DNA of 64,000 nucleotides, from the NCBI GenBank assembly GCA_006384855.1, contig VCJN01003381.1:1-64000 (forward strand), given 5' to 3'. The stretch comes from Tetraselmis striata. Its lineage: Eukaryota; Chlorophyta; Chlorodendrophyceae; Chlorodendrales; Chlorodendraceae. The notes under the pieces are model-generated. The model was not told the DNA's origin. It was given only the letters and a program-made list of their open reading frames with translations, and did no database searches. Positions 45,028-51,925 of this stretch are shown in pieces. How positions within the stretch are numbered: the stretch's first letter is position 1; the number at the start of each line of letters is the position of its first letter. The position numbers and the translations under genes were made by a program.

Positions 45028-45398
45028 TTGTTCCCAAGTGGTCTTAGTCCTGAACGCCCACATCCCAATACCTTCACTTGGACGCTGACCTCGAGGTTGT
45101 TCAGGGGACGCCCTCACCTCCTGCAGCCAGCCACGTCTTCACAAGTGGAGAGAGCAAGCCATCACAGTGCAACGTTCATCGGCGCCGATCTTCTGCGCTT
45201 TTGTTGGCAAGGCACTGTGCAAGGCGCGCGTAGGAGACATCGCCTACACTTACAACGCGTGCAACGAGCTGAGAGGAGCCGCGTGTGGTGGTTACCTCAG
45301 CCTAGAGCGCGTTCGTCGGCAACCGCTTCATCAACATGTTCAGTATCGACTTTTGCGCGCCCATCGGGGGGGTGGGGTGCAGCCACTAAGCAAGGCGC

Positions 45399-46170
45399 AT
45401 GTCAGAGGGAGAGAGCCCGCGCCAACTCAGCCGGCGCTTCACGAGGAGTACCGGAGCACCTATGGCAGCACCCTTATCGGAGCCGGAGCGTGTCTTGCGT
45501 CAAGCGCTCCGTGACGCCATGGCGCAGCGCGGTGGAGACCTCAGCGCCGTAGGATCTGGAACACCATCAAGACGACGACCACCTGGCAGTCAGCACTACG
45601 CGCCCAATCAGATCATGGGTGACCTGAGTGCAACGGAGGAGCGCATCTACGAGGAGCGAGAAGGCGCGCGGACAATCGCCGGTGGTCTATACGCAAGGAG
45701 ACAACACCACGCCATGAGCGCTTCGACGGCGCTACCTCGATATGAACGGAGTGGTTCAACTCATACAACGCCAACGTGTTGGTGCCATACACGCTTGCGA
45801 AGGCGCGACCTAGACCAGCCCCGAGGGCTGACGGAGCTGGTTCATCGGAGGGCGAGAGCACCGGACCGGAGTGGATGTTCAGCCCGGCGGAGTCCCTTCA
45901 ACTTCTTCAAGAGTACGTCGAGGTCACGCTGTCACCAAGCCCATCATCGATCAATGGCAGAAGGACACTCAACGCTATCAACAACAAACTCTCCGCTTCG
46001 ACCCTGCATCCGGACGCATTAGAGTACCATCGCGCGAGGGGGCGGACGCCTTTCACGACTTCCGTTGTCGACGCTACGTGGGGGTCTTTGAGACCAAGTT
46101 CAATGGGGCGCCGAAGATGCGCACTAGGTACGACGCCTACACCCGTGAGGGCTTCCGTGAGACCCCTTGA
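45399..46170 (+). pseudogene. gag-like frame, left palindrome arm (frameshifted)
   Basis: It starts MSEGESPRQLSRRFTRSTGA like its mirror copy, but a 2-base insertion (TATACGC against TACGC in the right arm, near 45690) shifts the frame after about 95 codons. The original phase is recoverable later as PIIDQWQKDTQRYQQ and SREGADAFHDFRCRRYVGVF. Confidence 0.5.
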
Positions 46171-46492
46171 GCTCGCAAAGAGTCATTGCCAAGCTGGCAG
46201 GGGTCTCACGGAAGCCCCCACGGGTGAAGGCGTCGTACCTAGTCCGCATCTTCGGCGCCTCGTTGAACTTGGTCTCAAAGAGCTCCACGTAGCGTCGATA
46301 ACGGAAGTCGTGAAAGGCGTCCGCCCCCTCGCGCGATGGTACTCTAATGCGTCCGGATGCAGGGTCGAAGCGGGGAGTTGGTTGTTGATAGCGTTGAGTG
46401 TCCTTCTGCCATTGATCGATGATGGGCCTAGTGACGGCGTTGACCTCGACGTACTCTTGAAGAAGTTGAAGGGAGTCCGCCGGACTGAAGAT

Positions 46493-46966
46493 CTACTCCG
46501 GTCCGGTGCTCTTGCCCTCCGATGAACCAGCTCCGTCAGCCCTCGGGGCTGGTCTAGATGGCGCCTTGGTAAGCGCGTATGGCACCAACACGTTGACGTT
46601 GTATGAGTTGAACCACTCCGTCCATTTCGAGGTAGCGCCGTCGAAGCGCTCATGGCGTGGTGTTGTCTCCTTGCGTAGACCACCGGCGATTGTCCGCGCG
46701 TCTTCTCGCTCCTCGTAGATGCGCTCCTCCACTGCACTCAGGTCACCCATGATCTGATTGGGCGCGTAGTGCTGACTGCCAGGTGGTCGTCGTCTTGATG
46801 GTGTTCCAGATCCTACGGCGCTGGGGTCTCCACCGCGCTGCGCCATGGCGTCACGGAGCGCTTGACGCAAGACACGCTCCGGCTCCGATAAGGGTGCTGC
46901 CACAGGTGCTCCGGTACTCCTCGTGAAGCGCCGGCTGAGTTGGCGCGGGCTCTCTCCCTCTGACAT
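46493..46966 (-). CDS. gag-like protein fragment, right palindrome arm
   Basis: 157 residues from MSEGESPRQLSRRFTR to a TAG where the left arm has TGG. The centre (RFDGATSKWTEWFNSYNVNV) has the FDG...W..WF pattern common near the start of retroelement gag proteins of the copia type. The N-terminal half is rich in Arg, Ser and Pro. I infer a capsid-type protein from that short pattern and the repetitive context; no zinc knuckle is present. Confidence 0.4.
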   Translation of the reverse strand: MSEGESPRQLSRRFTRSTGAPVAAPLSEPERVLRQALRDAMAQRGGDPSAVGSGTPSRRRPPGSQHYAPNQIMGDLSAVEERIYEEREDARTIAGGLRKETTPRHERFDGATSKWTEWFNSYNVNVLVPYALTKAPSRPAPRADGAGSSEGKSTGPE

Positions 46967-47432
46967 GCGCCTTGCTTAGTGGCTGCCCCCCAGCTTGGCG
47001 ATGACTCTTCGCGAGTATGCAGTGCGGGGCCGACAGTTTACCATCACCATCCCATTTCTCTTTTTCCTACGACACTGCCACTAATACATATACACTATTT
47101 CACAAATATGAGTTTCGCAAAATCGAGCGACATGCCCATACGTGGCTGCATCAAGCTAACTTGTGCACTCGGTCATGTGTGTTGCTACGAGTAAGGGCAG
47201 CATTACGGTCAGGTGAGTGAAATTGCTGTGATGGCGCGTGAGAGTGACCCGATAATTAAATACACCATGCAGTAGCCGTCGCCACGCACACACCACCGCC
47301 CCTGTTGTACCACCATGATAATTCCACTTAGGCAAATAGAACAATGCATGGTCTCGCGGCGTGGCGGTGAGTCAGGCTTTAAAAATAACTACACCATGGT
47401 AACTCGCGCCATTCGTGCGCATTTTTAGACGC

Positions 47433-47714
47433 CCGCCATGGGCCACACTTGCCGCCGTGCGTACTCATACTAGATCATTATCCATGGCTTGGTACCATGC
47501 CGCGGCGGATGATGACGAGGTGGAAGCTCTACACACTTTTTGTTTCTTCGTCTTATTAGAAAGCGCATGTTTCGCACTGCGAGCAGTAGTTTCCCCTGCC
47601 AGTCAGCAGCATAATCAAGCGCTGCGTGGATGTCAGCCAATCCACGGAACACAATGTAACAGATGGAATGGAGGTTGATTTCTGTGTTTGTTTGGGCGTA
47701 GCCCCTATAGACAC
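47433..47714. repeat. 282-bp direct repeat, left copy (LTR-like)
   Basis: It begins CCGCCATGGGCCACACTTGC and ends GGCGTAGCCCCTATAGACAC. The copy 656 bp downstream (48089-48370) is almost identical, with one visible difference near the 3' end. The 374 bp between them open with a pyrimidine-rich leader and a short frame MSTSINTGMMNTPLANLA. It could be the LTR pair of a deletion-derived element or a segmental tandem duplication; no TG...CA ends or target duplication are visible. Confidence 0.85.
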
Positions 47715-48088: not shown

Positions 48089-48370
48089 CCGCCATGGGCC
48101 ACACTTGCCGCCGTGCGTACTCATACTAGATCATTATCCATGGCTTGGTACCATGCCGCGGCGGATGATGACGAGGTGGAAGCTCTACACACTTTTTGTT
48201 TCTTCGTCTTATTAGAAAGCGCATGTTTCGCACTGCGAGCAGTAGTTTCCCCTGCCAGTCAGCAGCATAATCAAGCGCTGCGTGGATGTCAGCCAATCCA
48301 CGGAACACAATGTAACAGATGGAATGGAGGTTGATTTCTGTGTTTGTTTGGGCGTAGCCCTTATAGACAC
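48089..48370. repeat. 282-bp direct repeat, right copy (LTR-like)
   Basis: Second member of the pair that starts at 47433. The near-identity implies a recent duplication event. Confidence 0.85.
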
Positions 48371-49118
48371 CAAAGGGTGCCGTTACGTACGACATCGCTC
48401 GGTGAAAATACACACAAAAAGCCACTCTGCCTAATGCATCTCAAACCGCATCCCCACTACCGGGTACAACTCGGGTGGACCTTGACTGCCCTCCAGCACA
48501 TCTCGACACATCAGTGCGCTCGACATTCATGCGGTGATAATGAGGCGAGGAGCAGGTCGAGACTCCCGAAGCGGTGATGAGAACAACAGCACCTTCCCTT
48601 CCTGCGGCTTGCTGTGCGGGCATTAAATGATCTGCATGATTACATGCCGTAACCACTCCCGCGCGGAGAACGCTTAATAACAATCACACGCATCCAGCTC
48701 GCTGGCAAAGGATGCAGAACATAATTGGCGCCACCTAGTACGTCCGTTGCTCAGCACAGGTAACAAGTCCCGGCTATAAATTTCTGTGCGCTGCCAGTCC
48801 TGCGGGACTAGAGGCACAGCCAGTTCATCGCACGCTCCTGCTACTGCCAAAGACAGCAGATGGCATCGCCGCTGCACCCAGTGGGGGTGGCCGGCGCTTG
48901 GCATCCTGCTCGCTGAGAAGCCGCACGGGGATGGAGAAAGCATGCTGTGTTGGTGCATTCAAAGGCGCCAGGGGCTAGTGGAGTCCAGGTGTACGGGCCG
49001 GCGGACGAAAGTGGATATGCTCTGGTGGTTGCATGAGAGTCCGAGGTGCGGGCGGACACGGCGATGTGCAGCCTGGCCGCTCGCACCTCCAGACCGGCCC
49101 GACCCCAACATGGCCGCA
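48371..49118. other. spacer; likely 3' UTR of the 49119 gene
   Basis: TTACA near 48637 (TGTAA on the minus strand) is a possible poly(A) signal, though nearly 480 bases from the stop. No gene is supported. Confidence 0.4.
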
Positions 49119-51925
49119 TCATGAGCGCGATGCTGCGGAGAGGTACGACTCCAGGCGGTCCATCCCCCGCTGCGCTGCGTGCATGGCCTGCCGGTGCAGG
49201 ATCTGCCGCTGGATGTCGCCCGCCCTGCCCCACATGACCAGAAACGTGTCGGCCACGCCGCGCAGCTCGGGCCTCCTGGCCGCCACCTCCTCCAGCAGCG
49301 CCTCTAGCTCGTCGCTCATGCGCAGCGACTCGATGACGGCGCAGGCTGCGACAGCGTGCGGGTCACCCTCGAGCGCGGTGCGCTGCCGCTTTGGCAGAAC
49401 CACCGCCAAGGTGCCGGCCTGCTGGCCGGCAACGGGTGGCGCGTTCTCCGATGTGGCCTGCACGGCGCATCGCAGCAGACGGTGTCAGGGGGAGGGGGTG
49501 GCTAAGCAGCCAGATCGGCGCAGAGCACCGCCAGGGGGGGGGAGGGGGGGGGGGGGGGCGTGTGCGTGCTGGGGCGGTGCCCGCACCTCCCGGAAGCCAC
49601 CCATGCCCAGCTGCCTCCTGAGCCCGCTGTGGGCAAGCGTTGGCGGCCGGCCCCACATGGACGGAGTCCCCATCTTGGAGCAGATGGACTTCACGCGCTG
49701 CCGGGACAGCAGGCTGCGGCCGTCCAGCTGCGCCCACTGCCAGCTGCGCGCGGTGAGGTCCTGCACAAAGATCTGCGAGGCCTGCGGGCAGGTGGCGGGA
49801 AGTGCATCGCCGGGTGCATTACGGCCCCCGCCCATTCCACATTGCATGCATGTGCACATACATGTGCTCATGTGGGCGTGCGTTTGTGTCCACGTGTGGC
49901 GGATCCAACGCAATCTTGTTACCGCAAGCATGCAGCGGTATGCACGCGAGCACACCATGGCAAGGACCAGCAGGATGTCCTCGCCGCTGCCCTCCACGTC
50001 CAGCGAGCGTTCCAAGATGATGGACGCCACGCTCTGCGTACCGCAGCGGCACAGCGGGCTGTCAAAGGAGCGAGGCCGGCTGGGAGGGGGGGAGGGCGGG
50101 GGTAACGGCGGGCGCTTCCACGCGCGATTGGTTGGGTCCGGGCGTACCTCCTTGATTTTGTCTGTGTCGCTCAGAAAGTGGCCGTCGTACCCCTCCGCCA
50201 GCAGGCCAAGGTGCGCCAGGTGGCCGCCCGCGTCCGCCTGCCCGGCCACCTCTGCGACCGGCCGGTACACTACCTCCCACGGTGTCCCCGCGTGCGCCTG
50301 CGCATCCGGGTTCAGCTCTGCGGCACGGCAGTGGGGGCAGCCGGCCACCGAGAGGGCTCCATCAGCCATGCACATTCGCCAGCTCCGGCCTGGGAAGCTC
50401 GAGACACGCCGGGCGGTCCCCTTGAGCCCGCACCTTTGACCGTCTCTGTATTCCTTGGCTCCTCTGACGAGGGAGGCGCAGAAAGGGGGGCCCGTCTTGA
50501 GGGGGGGCGAGCTTTGGCCGGGGTGGCGGGCTCCGGGGTCGGCTTGCGCCGCAGCTTGCAGGGCGACGAGGACACGGGCTTGGCCGGAGCTGCCTTTCTG
50601 CTCCTCCCTCCCGCGCGCCCCCGCGGCGCCACGCCCCCACCCCCATCCCCATCCCCATCCTCACCCCCGTCCACGTCAGGCGCCAGCAGCTGCTCGAGGC
50701 TGTGCCCCAGCTTTGGCTCCGGCGGGTCTATCCTGGTGCCGGGCTTTATGATCTCGCCAGCCAGGAGCAGCGGCCCCTCAACTGAGTCGTCCGCGGTGTA
50801 CTCCACCTGCAGACGTGCACGGCACGGTCACCCACCCACCGCCATTTCCCCTCTCCACTCCATTATCCACCCCACGAGCAACTACCTCTTGGGAGGGGAC
50901 AAGGCGGGCCACACCATAGACTCTCCCGTGGCTGGGTTGTGATCCACCACTGCGCAATGGTACCATTTGGCTTCTCCGGGCCTGTCAGGGAGGGGAATGG
51001 GCATCGGGGCGGGGTGTGTGTGGTTGGGGGAGGGGGGGGGGGGGTATGTAGGAGTCGGCTGCATTGCAAAAAGCGCCAACAAGAGCAGGTAGCACTCTGC
51101 CCTCAGCCACCCACCAGTACAACCAAAGCCTCCTGCTGCCCGTGAGGTTTCCGGCGTCGCGGTCATGAATGGCTGCCGACTCGCGACGCAGCCACTCCCC
51201 CAGCGGCACATTCTGCGATCGAGACAGGCAGAATCAGGCACATCGACAATCACCCCCCCCCCCCCCCCCCCCCTTCCATTTTTCTCCTCCTACCCGGCGT
51301 CGTCGTTACCTTGTAGGTGGGCGCCGACGTCATGGTGATGGCCTCCCGCCAGGCGGCGGGGTCCTCCTCCGACCGCCGCCCCGTGCCGTGCTCATAGAAC
51401 TGCTCCAACGTGAACACCCGGCCGTTGTACTCCCGGTAGTTGAGCCCGCGGTCGGCACAGCCCCCGCAGAGGCACACCACGAAGTAGGCGCACCCCTGCT
51501 GGTCGCGCCCGGCGGCGTGGCCGCCAAGGAACCTGCCGCACGGGGTCGAGCACACTGCTTAACGCACGGCCTGCGAGGTGAGACAGCCCCTCCCCTTCCG
51601 TTACCGAAAGCGGACGAACTATATGACGCACAGCGAGATAGTAAAAAACCCAGAAAAAACTCGCGATTGGGGCTCGCTTTGCTGCAGCGCCGGGTTGTTC
51701 CGGCTTCCTTCGCTGGCGGTAGCATGTTAGAGCACAGTAGCCAGGGTCAGGAACTTGCCTTCCCGTCTTATCACCGCACGCGACGTGGCTGCGGCGAGAG
51801 TACGAGGAGTTCACGACAAAGCAGAGCTTCTCCGCCTCCACCGCGCCGGTTTTTCGCCCGAAGGTGGCCCCAGGCGCCCTCTTCTGCTTGGGTGGCGCCA
51901 GGCCGCGCAGCTCATCCCGGCCCAT
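49119..51925 (-). CDS. SAND-like / Tudor-like / NF-YC-like histone-fold protein
   Basis: Nine exons (51925-51775, 51554-51310, 51212-51124, 50981-50915, 50806-50434, 50317-50148, 50033-49956, 49781-49587, 49457-49119) total 1707 nt and stay in frame (568 aa). Residues 50-145 are Cys-rich (C50, C52, C56, C72, C78, C80, C83), then GRVFTLEQFYEHGTG (95-109), W119 and VPLGEWL (134-140), the pattern of algal SAND domains (TPxxFExHAG...W..SI...PLGxWL). Residues 167-204 (KWYHCAVVDHNPATGE, VEYTADDS) resemble a Tudor-type reader. Residues 205-308 are low complexity. Residues about 355-430 (ILLVLAMASQIFVQDLTARS, WQWAQLDGRSLLS) align without gaps to the NF-YC histone-fold core (LFAKACELFILELTIRSW). The last 110 residues are helical. 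A nuclear chromatin or transcription role is inferred. The combination is one I do not know from any described family. Confidence 0.75.

Follow-up and report, generated by a model that had tools for sequence, protein, structure and literature searches.

As a rule, NF-YC-type folds are small subunits that NF-YA or other factors bring to DNA. The basic residues of NF-YC in α1 and loop 2 contact DNA, and its C-terminal helix serves NF-YA. Such folds are already known outside NF-Y, as in ORP2; Plasmodium ORP1 and ORP2 are described as histone-fold proteins outside the canonical NF-Y setting (PMC5172368). Histone folds are called obligate dimers, with an exception in insects, in another report (PMC12678787). 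With regard to chromatin readers, the work on Arabidopsis RDM15 (7DE9) describes it as an H3K4me1 reader, with a Tudor cage formed by Trp616, Tyr623 and Tyr641 together with Asp643 and Asp645 (PMC8184781). KDWK is given as the DNA-binding motif of SAND domains in PMC4274154, and PMC10137558 describes green algae as richly equipped with SAND architectures. Here we describe a gene in a 64,000-nucleotide stretch of Tetraselmis striata DNA (the window), which probably joins distant relatives of all three modules in one chain.

The gene lies on the minus strand at 49119-51925 and, judged by the joined frame and codon usage, consists of nine exons encoding 569 amino acids, with the TGA at 49119. The nine exons in perfect phase that an earlier note had claimed from the letters alone were borne out, and every peptide quoted there is present in the translation. 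The junction phases are, in order, 2,0,2,0,1,0,0,0, and all of the eight introns but the first, which is GC-AG, have GT-AG ends. Exon 1 (51759-51925, minus strand) encodes the N-terminus and ends at the GC splice donor; upstream of its ATG at 51925 the frame runs into a stop before any other ATG. The G+C contents at codon positions 1, 2 and 3 are 0.69, 0.53 and 0.85, respectively. When we scored codon usage against a reference of 385 codons from other genes in the same genome, the proposed frame was the best of the three forward frames in all nine exons, and the reverse frames ranked below it, again in 9/9; the score of the proposed frame itself was slightly negative in exons 3, 4 and 5. Since the reverse frames scored lower throughout, the long plus-strand open reading frames under the gene (e.g. 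48979-50439) were not preferred. Introns 6, 7 and 8 have lengths divisible by three, and introns 6 and 7 are free of stops; all three gave a negative codon-usage score whatever the frame. Introns 6 and 7 were rejected as coding sequence because of these negative scores, because intron 7 is shared with NF-YC and because the histone fold becomes gap-free only once intron 7 is removed. In the alga's own genome (224 Mb, 2903 contigs) the gene is single-copy at the DNA level, the 16 other matches being stretches of 30-55 bases. The rubisco large chain of this genome gave its best score (1044 bits) against 1gk8, that of Chlamydomonas reinhardtii, a match that suggests a chlamydomonad-type green alga.

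Searches with the whole protein gave nothing above the cut-off in Pfam or NCBIfam, and sequence searches of the PDB gave no SAND or Tudor name above any cut-off. The matches to EndoU, T4_Rnl2_C and TAF10 were all under the cut-off. The earlier note had named profile searches without a SAND, Tudor or histone-fold match as evidence against its reading; such searches did fail at the level of Pfam, where only TAF10 appeared (E 0.16, under the cut-off), and were overruled by more sensitive comparisons. TAF10 is itself a histone-fold family. When we compared the protein with 5000 shuffles of itself by best-domain score, using three profiles built without it, it outscored all shuffles with each profile and at the expected location; two of the three profiles contain PDB stretches found earlier as matches of this protein. 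The scores of the protein and of its best shuffle were 15.1 and 4.6 bits for NF-YC, 8.4 and 4.2 for Tudor, and 10.4 and 9.0 for SAND, with E-values in the set of 5001 sequences of 0.002, 0.28 and 0.061, respectively. Each domain match is distant, and the assignments below are predictions from sequence.

The SAND-like part spans residues about 70-142. Most of it is encoded by exon 2 (51310-51532, minus strand), which was assigned by profile and pairwise comparison and contains C76-x-C78-x2-C81, F..H104 and W117, and its final strand (NVPLGEWL, to about residue 142) lies in exon 3 (51115-51212, minus strand). Pfam SAND (PF01342) did not match the protein at E up to 10, and the PDB gave no match either for the SAND-like part alone or for a two-row algal profile. 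Profiles were also built from the alga's own SAND domains, of which nine matches were found, seven of them over the cut-off. The profile A3 was built from L009, L010, L011, L013, L015 and L017, the last being under the cut-off; L012 and L014 were omitted as second copies, with scores equal to those of L011 and L015, and L016 was omitted as unlike SAND. A first profile, A1, had held five of the nine matches, without L010. When A3 was searched against the PDB, the best four of seven matches were SAND chains of SP140, SP100-B and GMEB1 (E 1.2e-6 to 0.0015), followed by 1ufn at 0.041 and two unrelated chains at E 0.77 and 0.83. The pair of algal SAND-like sequences (A4, comprising this protein and that of the second gene described below) matched A3 with an hhalign probability of 95.9 and a single-pair E of 5.6e-9, so the SAND-like module proposed from the letters holds. 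In the shuffle set the protein ranked first of 5001 by best domain, although narrowly, and with a smaller SAND profile one shuffle equalled its full score. In pairwise comparisons none of 2000 shuffles matched the protein against L015 (z 5.6), while the signal against L010 was weak (59 of 2000 shuffles as good) and that against L009 was absent (399 of 2000). The second gene gave a clear signal against both L010 and L015 and none against L009. C-x-C-x2-C is common to this protein, the second gene and three of the six A3 rows (L010, L011 and L015). The pattern FT..F..H.....W...I......G.WL is likewise shared with SAND proteins such as SP140, SP100, DEAF1, GMEB1 and the algal VARL/RegA, but this protein differs from them in having no Pfam match and no KDWK, which reads A115-A116-W117-R118 in the alignment anchored on W117. 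Exon 2 folded alone, without relatives, gave a mean pLDDT of 42.8. The SAND-like part alone has no relative in prokaryote genomes or viral contigs, as expected for a eukaryotic gene. We suggest that this part would fold round a metal site made of C-x-C-x2-C, plus H104, and that it would make protein contacts rather than bind DNA sequence-specifically.

The Tudor-like part covers residues about 155-205. It begins in exon 3 (from about residue 155), continues through exon 4 (50915-50981, minus strand), which by alignment carries W163, with a codon split by the junction, and Y170 of the predicted cage, and ends in exon 5 (50434-50806, minus strand) with Y188 and D192. Exon 5 also encodes a P/G/A/R-rich linker, residues 212-309, which is presumably disordered. 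No Tudor family exceeded the Pfam cut-off, including the Tudor of the PTM/DIR17 and RDM15 type. When the single sequence was searched against the PDB, only an unrelated chain was found, and a two-row algal profile gave two matches, RDM15 (7DE9) at E 0.47, which is weak alone, and a PHD finger at E 0.5. Comparison by profile gave a probability of 64 and an E of 6.5e-5, in agreement with the Tudor-like module first noticed by eye. The Tudor profile A6 holds six of the seven own-genome Tudor matches, L079 being excluded for an in-frame stop, together with the RDM15 stretch, and the first rank of the protein among 5001 was obtained with a Tudor profile that includes this stretch. Compared directly with the RDM15 stretch, the protein and the second gene gave z 6.2 and 7.8, respectively, with 0/2000 shuffles as good in each case. 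The aromatic cage W/Y/Y is kept: W163, Y170 and Y188, plus D192, align with W616, Y623, Y641 and D645 of RDM15, whose residues we numbered by counting the stretch from Glu647. At RDM15 D643 the protein has A190, and the position aligned with E647 does not carry a glutamate; the second gene reads W, F, Y, N and D at positions 616, 623, 641, 643 and 645. The 569-residue protein and RDM15 thus have all three cage aromatics and D645 in common, but their identity is low, and the excerpts of the RDM15 report mention no SAND or histone fold for RDM15 (PMC8184781). Based on the cage residues aligned with RDM15, a methyl-lysine reader is a fair prediction for the Tudor-like part, whereas the choice of RDM15 for the mono-methyl form would not be a fair prediction to carry over.

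The genome contains a second SAND-Tudor gene. In a tblastn search exon 2 recurred on contigs C1727 and C273 (L054 and L055) with 46-47% identity; the SAND parts of the two proteins are 41-48% identical and their Tudor exons are homologous. The copies on C1727 and C273 share 97% identity across 8.7 kb and are probably alleles or assembly duplicates; they differ by 0-1.9% in five exons and by 2.9% elsewhere in the 3.2 kb that were compared. A search of the genome with the module of the second gene reached E < 0.01 at only three places, namely these two copies and the 569-residue gene. Its exons comprise a SAND exon, an AWL exon (GEWL in the 569-residue gene), a YWPGE exon and an exon with the last Tudor strands, and four introns lie at identical places and phases (2,0,2,0) in both genes, the first being judged from its acceptor alone. 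At this locus we located neither the exon that precedes the SAND exon nor the precise end of the last Tudor exon. As with the 569-residue protein, Pfam and PDB searches with this module gave no SAND or Tudor name over the cut-off. The two genes agree in module order, in the four introns, in C-x-C-x2-C and in the cage residues (W/F/Y in the second gene). However, the C-terminal end of the second gene is different, being acidic and serine-rich, and the forward frames of the locus, read over 9.9 kb, contained no NF-YC-like fold. Its C-terminal frame (L054 6822-7697) is acidic and serine-rich and then reads MISIIEVLVAEGHMSVRDKSSFLFYFW...; the last 85 residues have no Pfam match.

The back half of the 569-residue protein begins with exon 6 (50148-50317, minus strand), the stretch preceding the histone fold, for which a search with the back half of the protein found no relative in the own genome. 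The fold itself covers residues about 362-430. By alignment, exon 7 (49956-50033, minus strand) encodes α1 and the first part of α2, and exon 8 (49587-49781, minus strand) the remainder of α2, loop 2, α3 (ASQIFVQDLTARSW...RVKSICSK) and then a tail; exon 9 (49119-49457, minus strand) encodes the C-terminal part, which is helical by eye only and has no Pfam match. Pfam CBFD_NFYB_HMF and Histone did not match. When we searched the PDB with phmmer, all 14 matches up to E 10, with E-values from 0.063 to 0.9, bore the names of NF-YC, HapE or further subunits of histone-fold type. ORP2 is among the 14, and for ORP1/ORP2 no SAND or Tudor is mentioned in the portions of the source used, which sets them apart from the present protein (PMC5172368). 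We compared the fold with seven own-genome histone folds, a selection of those in the genome, to which protein names were assigned from their sequences. The alga's NF-YC gave z 10.8, followed by POLE4-like (7.6) and POLE3-like (7.3), and NC2-alpha, Dr1, NF-YB and H2B-like gave no signal; the NF-YC-like assignment made from the letters is thus upheld. The alignment with the alga's NF-YC is gap-free over 58 residues. Furthermore, intron 7 (49782-49955, minus strand) matches an intron of the canonical NF-YC gene in position and phase: the latter interrupts VLFAK|ACDMF in phase 0, and intron 7 follows LVLAM, also in phase 0, at the aligned position, whereas the introns of NC2-alpha and POLE4-like are displaced by about two codons. 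Own-genome tblastn searches with the whole protein or its back half did not list NF-YC, so the link to NF-YC rests on the direct comparison and the intron. From the similarity and the shared intron position, descent of the histone fold from NF-YC appears most likely, although the aspartate of the NF-YC motif RND is an arginine in this protein. The NF-YC profile (A8) consisted of the alga's NF-YC and two PDB stretches. The identity of the fold to three NF-YC sequences is 23-28%. The protein shares with NF-YC/HapE (CBF-C) the core A.A..F...LT.RSW......R..L.R, but differs in having neither the basic patches nor the end behind α3, and in being fused to reader modules. The canonical NF-YC is encoded elsewhere in the genome and is 69% identical over 36 residues to an NF-Y gamma stretch; the alga also has NF-YB (C121/C1002), Dr1 (C713) and POLE3-like (C1619) genes. 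An NF-YA match (PF02045, E 2.7e-24) was observed at C2005:74202-74366; NF-YA was reportedly not identified in Chlamydomonas reinhardtii, according to part of PMC4827209.

Since its fold is nearest to NF-YC and NF-YA and NF-YB genes exist in the genome, the protein might be regarded as a plain NF-YC subunit with added domains, joining NF-YB and NF-YA and binding CCAAT. However, a canonical NF-YC is already present, and the NF-YC basic residues of α1 and loop 2 and the C-terminal helix are not kept in the alignments: loop 2 has DGRS where NF-YC has NKRR, and GTPSMWG stands in place of DIFDFLV behind α3. The missing basic patches and DIFDFLV speak against binding of CCAAT together with NF-YA, and we regard a plain NF-YC subunit as unlikely. 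A small chance may be left to a replication or remodelling histone fold (POLE3/POLE4, CHRAC-type) carrying reader domains, for which the second-best similarity to POLE4-like and POLE3-like would speak, but NF-YC scores clearly higher and has the exact same intron.

The predicted fusion depends on the join between exons 5 and 6, and exons 1-5 could instead form a SAND-Tudor gene next to a separate, small NF-YC-like gene made of exons 6-9. The second SAND-Tudor gene, which lacks the NF-YC-like fold, would fit such an arrangement, and the exon 5-6 join has no counterpart in a relative in the own genome. The frame of exon 6 is also open upstream into exon 5, with ATG codons within intron 5; yet the unspliced upstream frame stops at 50314-50312 in exon 6, behind these candidate ATGs, so that two separate genes would have to overlap. 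Intron 5 is moreover just 116 bases long, has the ends GTGCGG and GCAG, and joins in phase. TGTAA is the usual poly-A signal of such algae, and the minus strand has none between 53319 and 48644, which is weak evidence against two genes, since the density in the window (36 per 64 kb) predicts about 1.6 for the length of the gene. The sole TGTAA on the minus strand between 53319 and 47951 lies at 48640-48644, 475 bases behind the stop. Taken together, we consider two genes improbable. That the gene is decayed or neutral and the fusion a functionless accident seems to us very unlikely: several signature residues are lost, the gene is single-copy with no second relative of its back half in the own genome, and codon usage is slightly negative in three exons, but none of the nine exons is interrupted or out of frame, third-position G+C is high, the proposed frame ranks first in every exon, and the cage and core residues are retained.

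Based on these comparisons, we favor a single gene for a chromatin adaptor as the probable explanation, in which a SAND-Tudor module, a low-complexity linker and an NF-YC-derived histone fold would be combined in one chain that pairs with an H2B-type partner. The gene may have originated by attachment of a copy of NF-YC to the 3' side of a SAND-Tudor gene. The Tudor-like part would bind methylated lysine, with a histone tail as the most likely target, and the histone fold would pair with NF-YB, Dr1 or a POLE3-like protein as its H2B-type partner. Such a dimer would sit at marked chromatin rather than at CCAAT boxes, where it would co-regulate or compete with NF-YC. The earlier note had gone further and proposed a self-contained recruiter with a DNA-reading module. 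The latter is unsupported, given the A-A-W-R in place of KDWK and the missing NF-YC basic stretches, and so is the former: a histone fold normally requires a partner, and the protein is thus more likely half of a dimer. Its view that the layout belongs to no described family stands in part, as the SAND-Tudor half also occurs in the second gene and the new aspect would be the fusion of this half to an NF-YC fold, which looks new. A literature search by title or the start of the abstract, which did not cover a survey of algal SAND architectures, found no protein uniting a SAND, a Tudor and an NF-YC fold, and SAND-Tudor or similar proteins may already have been described in algae. A natural fusion of an NF-YC fold to a methyl reader would offer a direct test of whether chromatin marks can address histone-fold dimers, and it would show green algae building regulators by module joining. 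More speculatively, and with considerable doubt, green algae might have a class of reader-fused histone-fold subunits in which a diverged NF-YC fold, borne by a SAND-Tudor reader, takes the place of NF-YC beside NF-YB (or Dr1) and moves these dimers from CCAAT boxes to methylated histones; if so, a histone-fold pair would be addressed by a histone mark and not by DNA sequence.

With respect to the surroundings, tRNA and Rfam scans of the whole window were empty. Near-identical genes in two or three copies were observed on separate contigs of the genome (C448, C2588 and C2296; C1727 and C273; C2891 and C2750), as would be seen when both haplotypes are retained in an assembly, and the 569-residue gene has one copy. 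Beyond the 3' end of the gene, a 282-base direct repeat occurs at 47433-47714 and 48089-48370, the two copies being 100% identical and 656 bases apart. A nested inverted repeat at 45362-47003, with arms of 328, 237 and 242 bases that are 95-97% complementary and a 31-base centre, is possibly a mobile element or a source of hairpin RNA.
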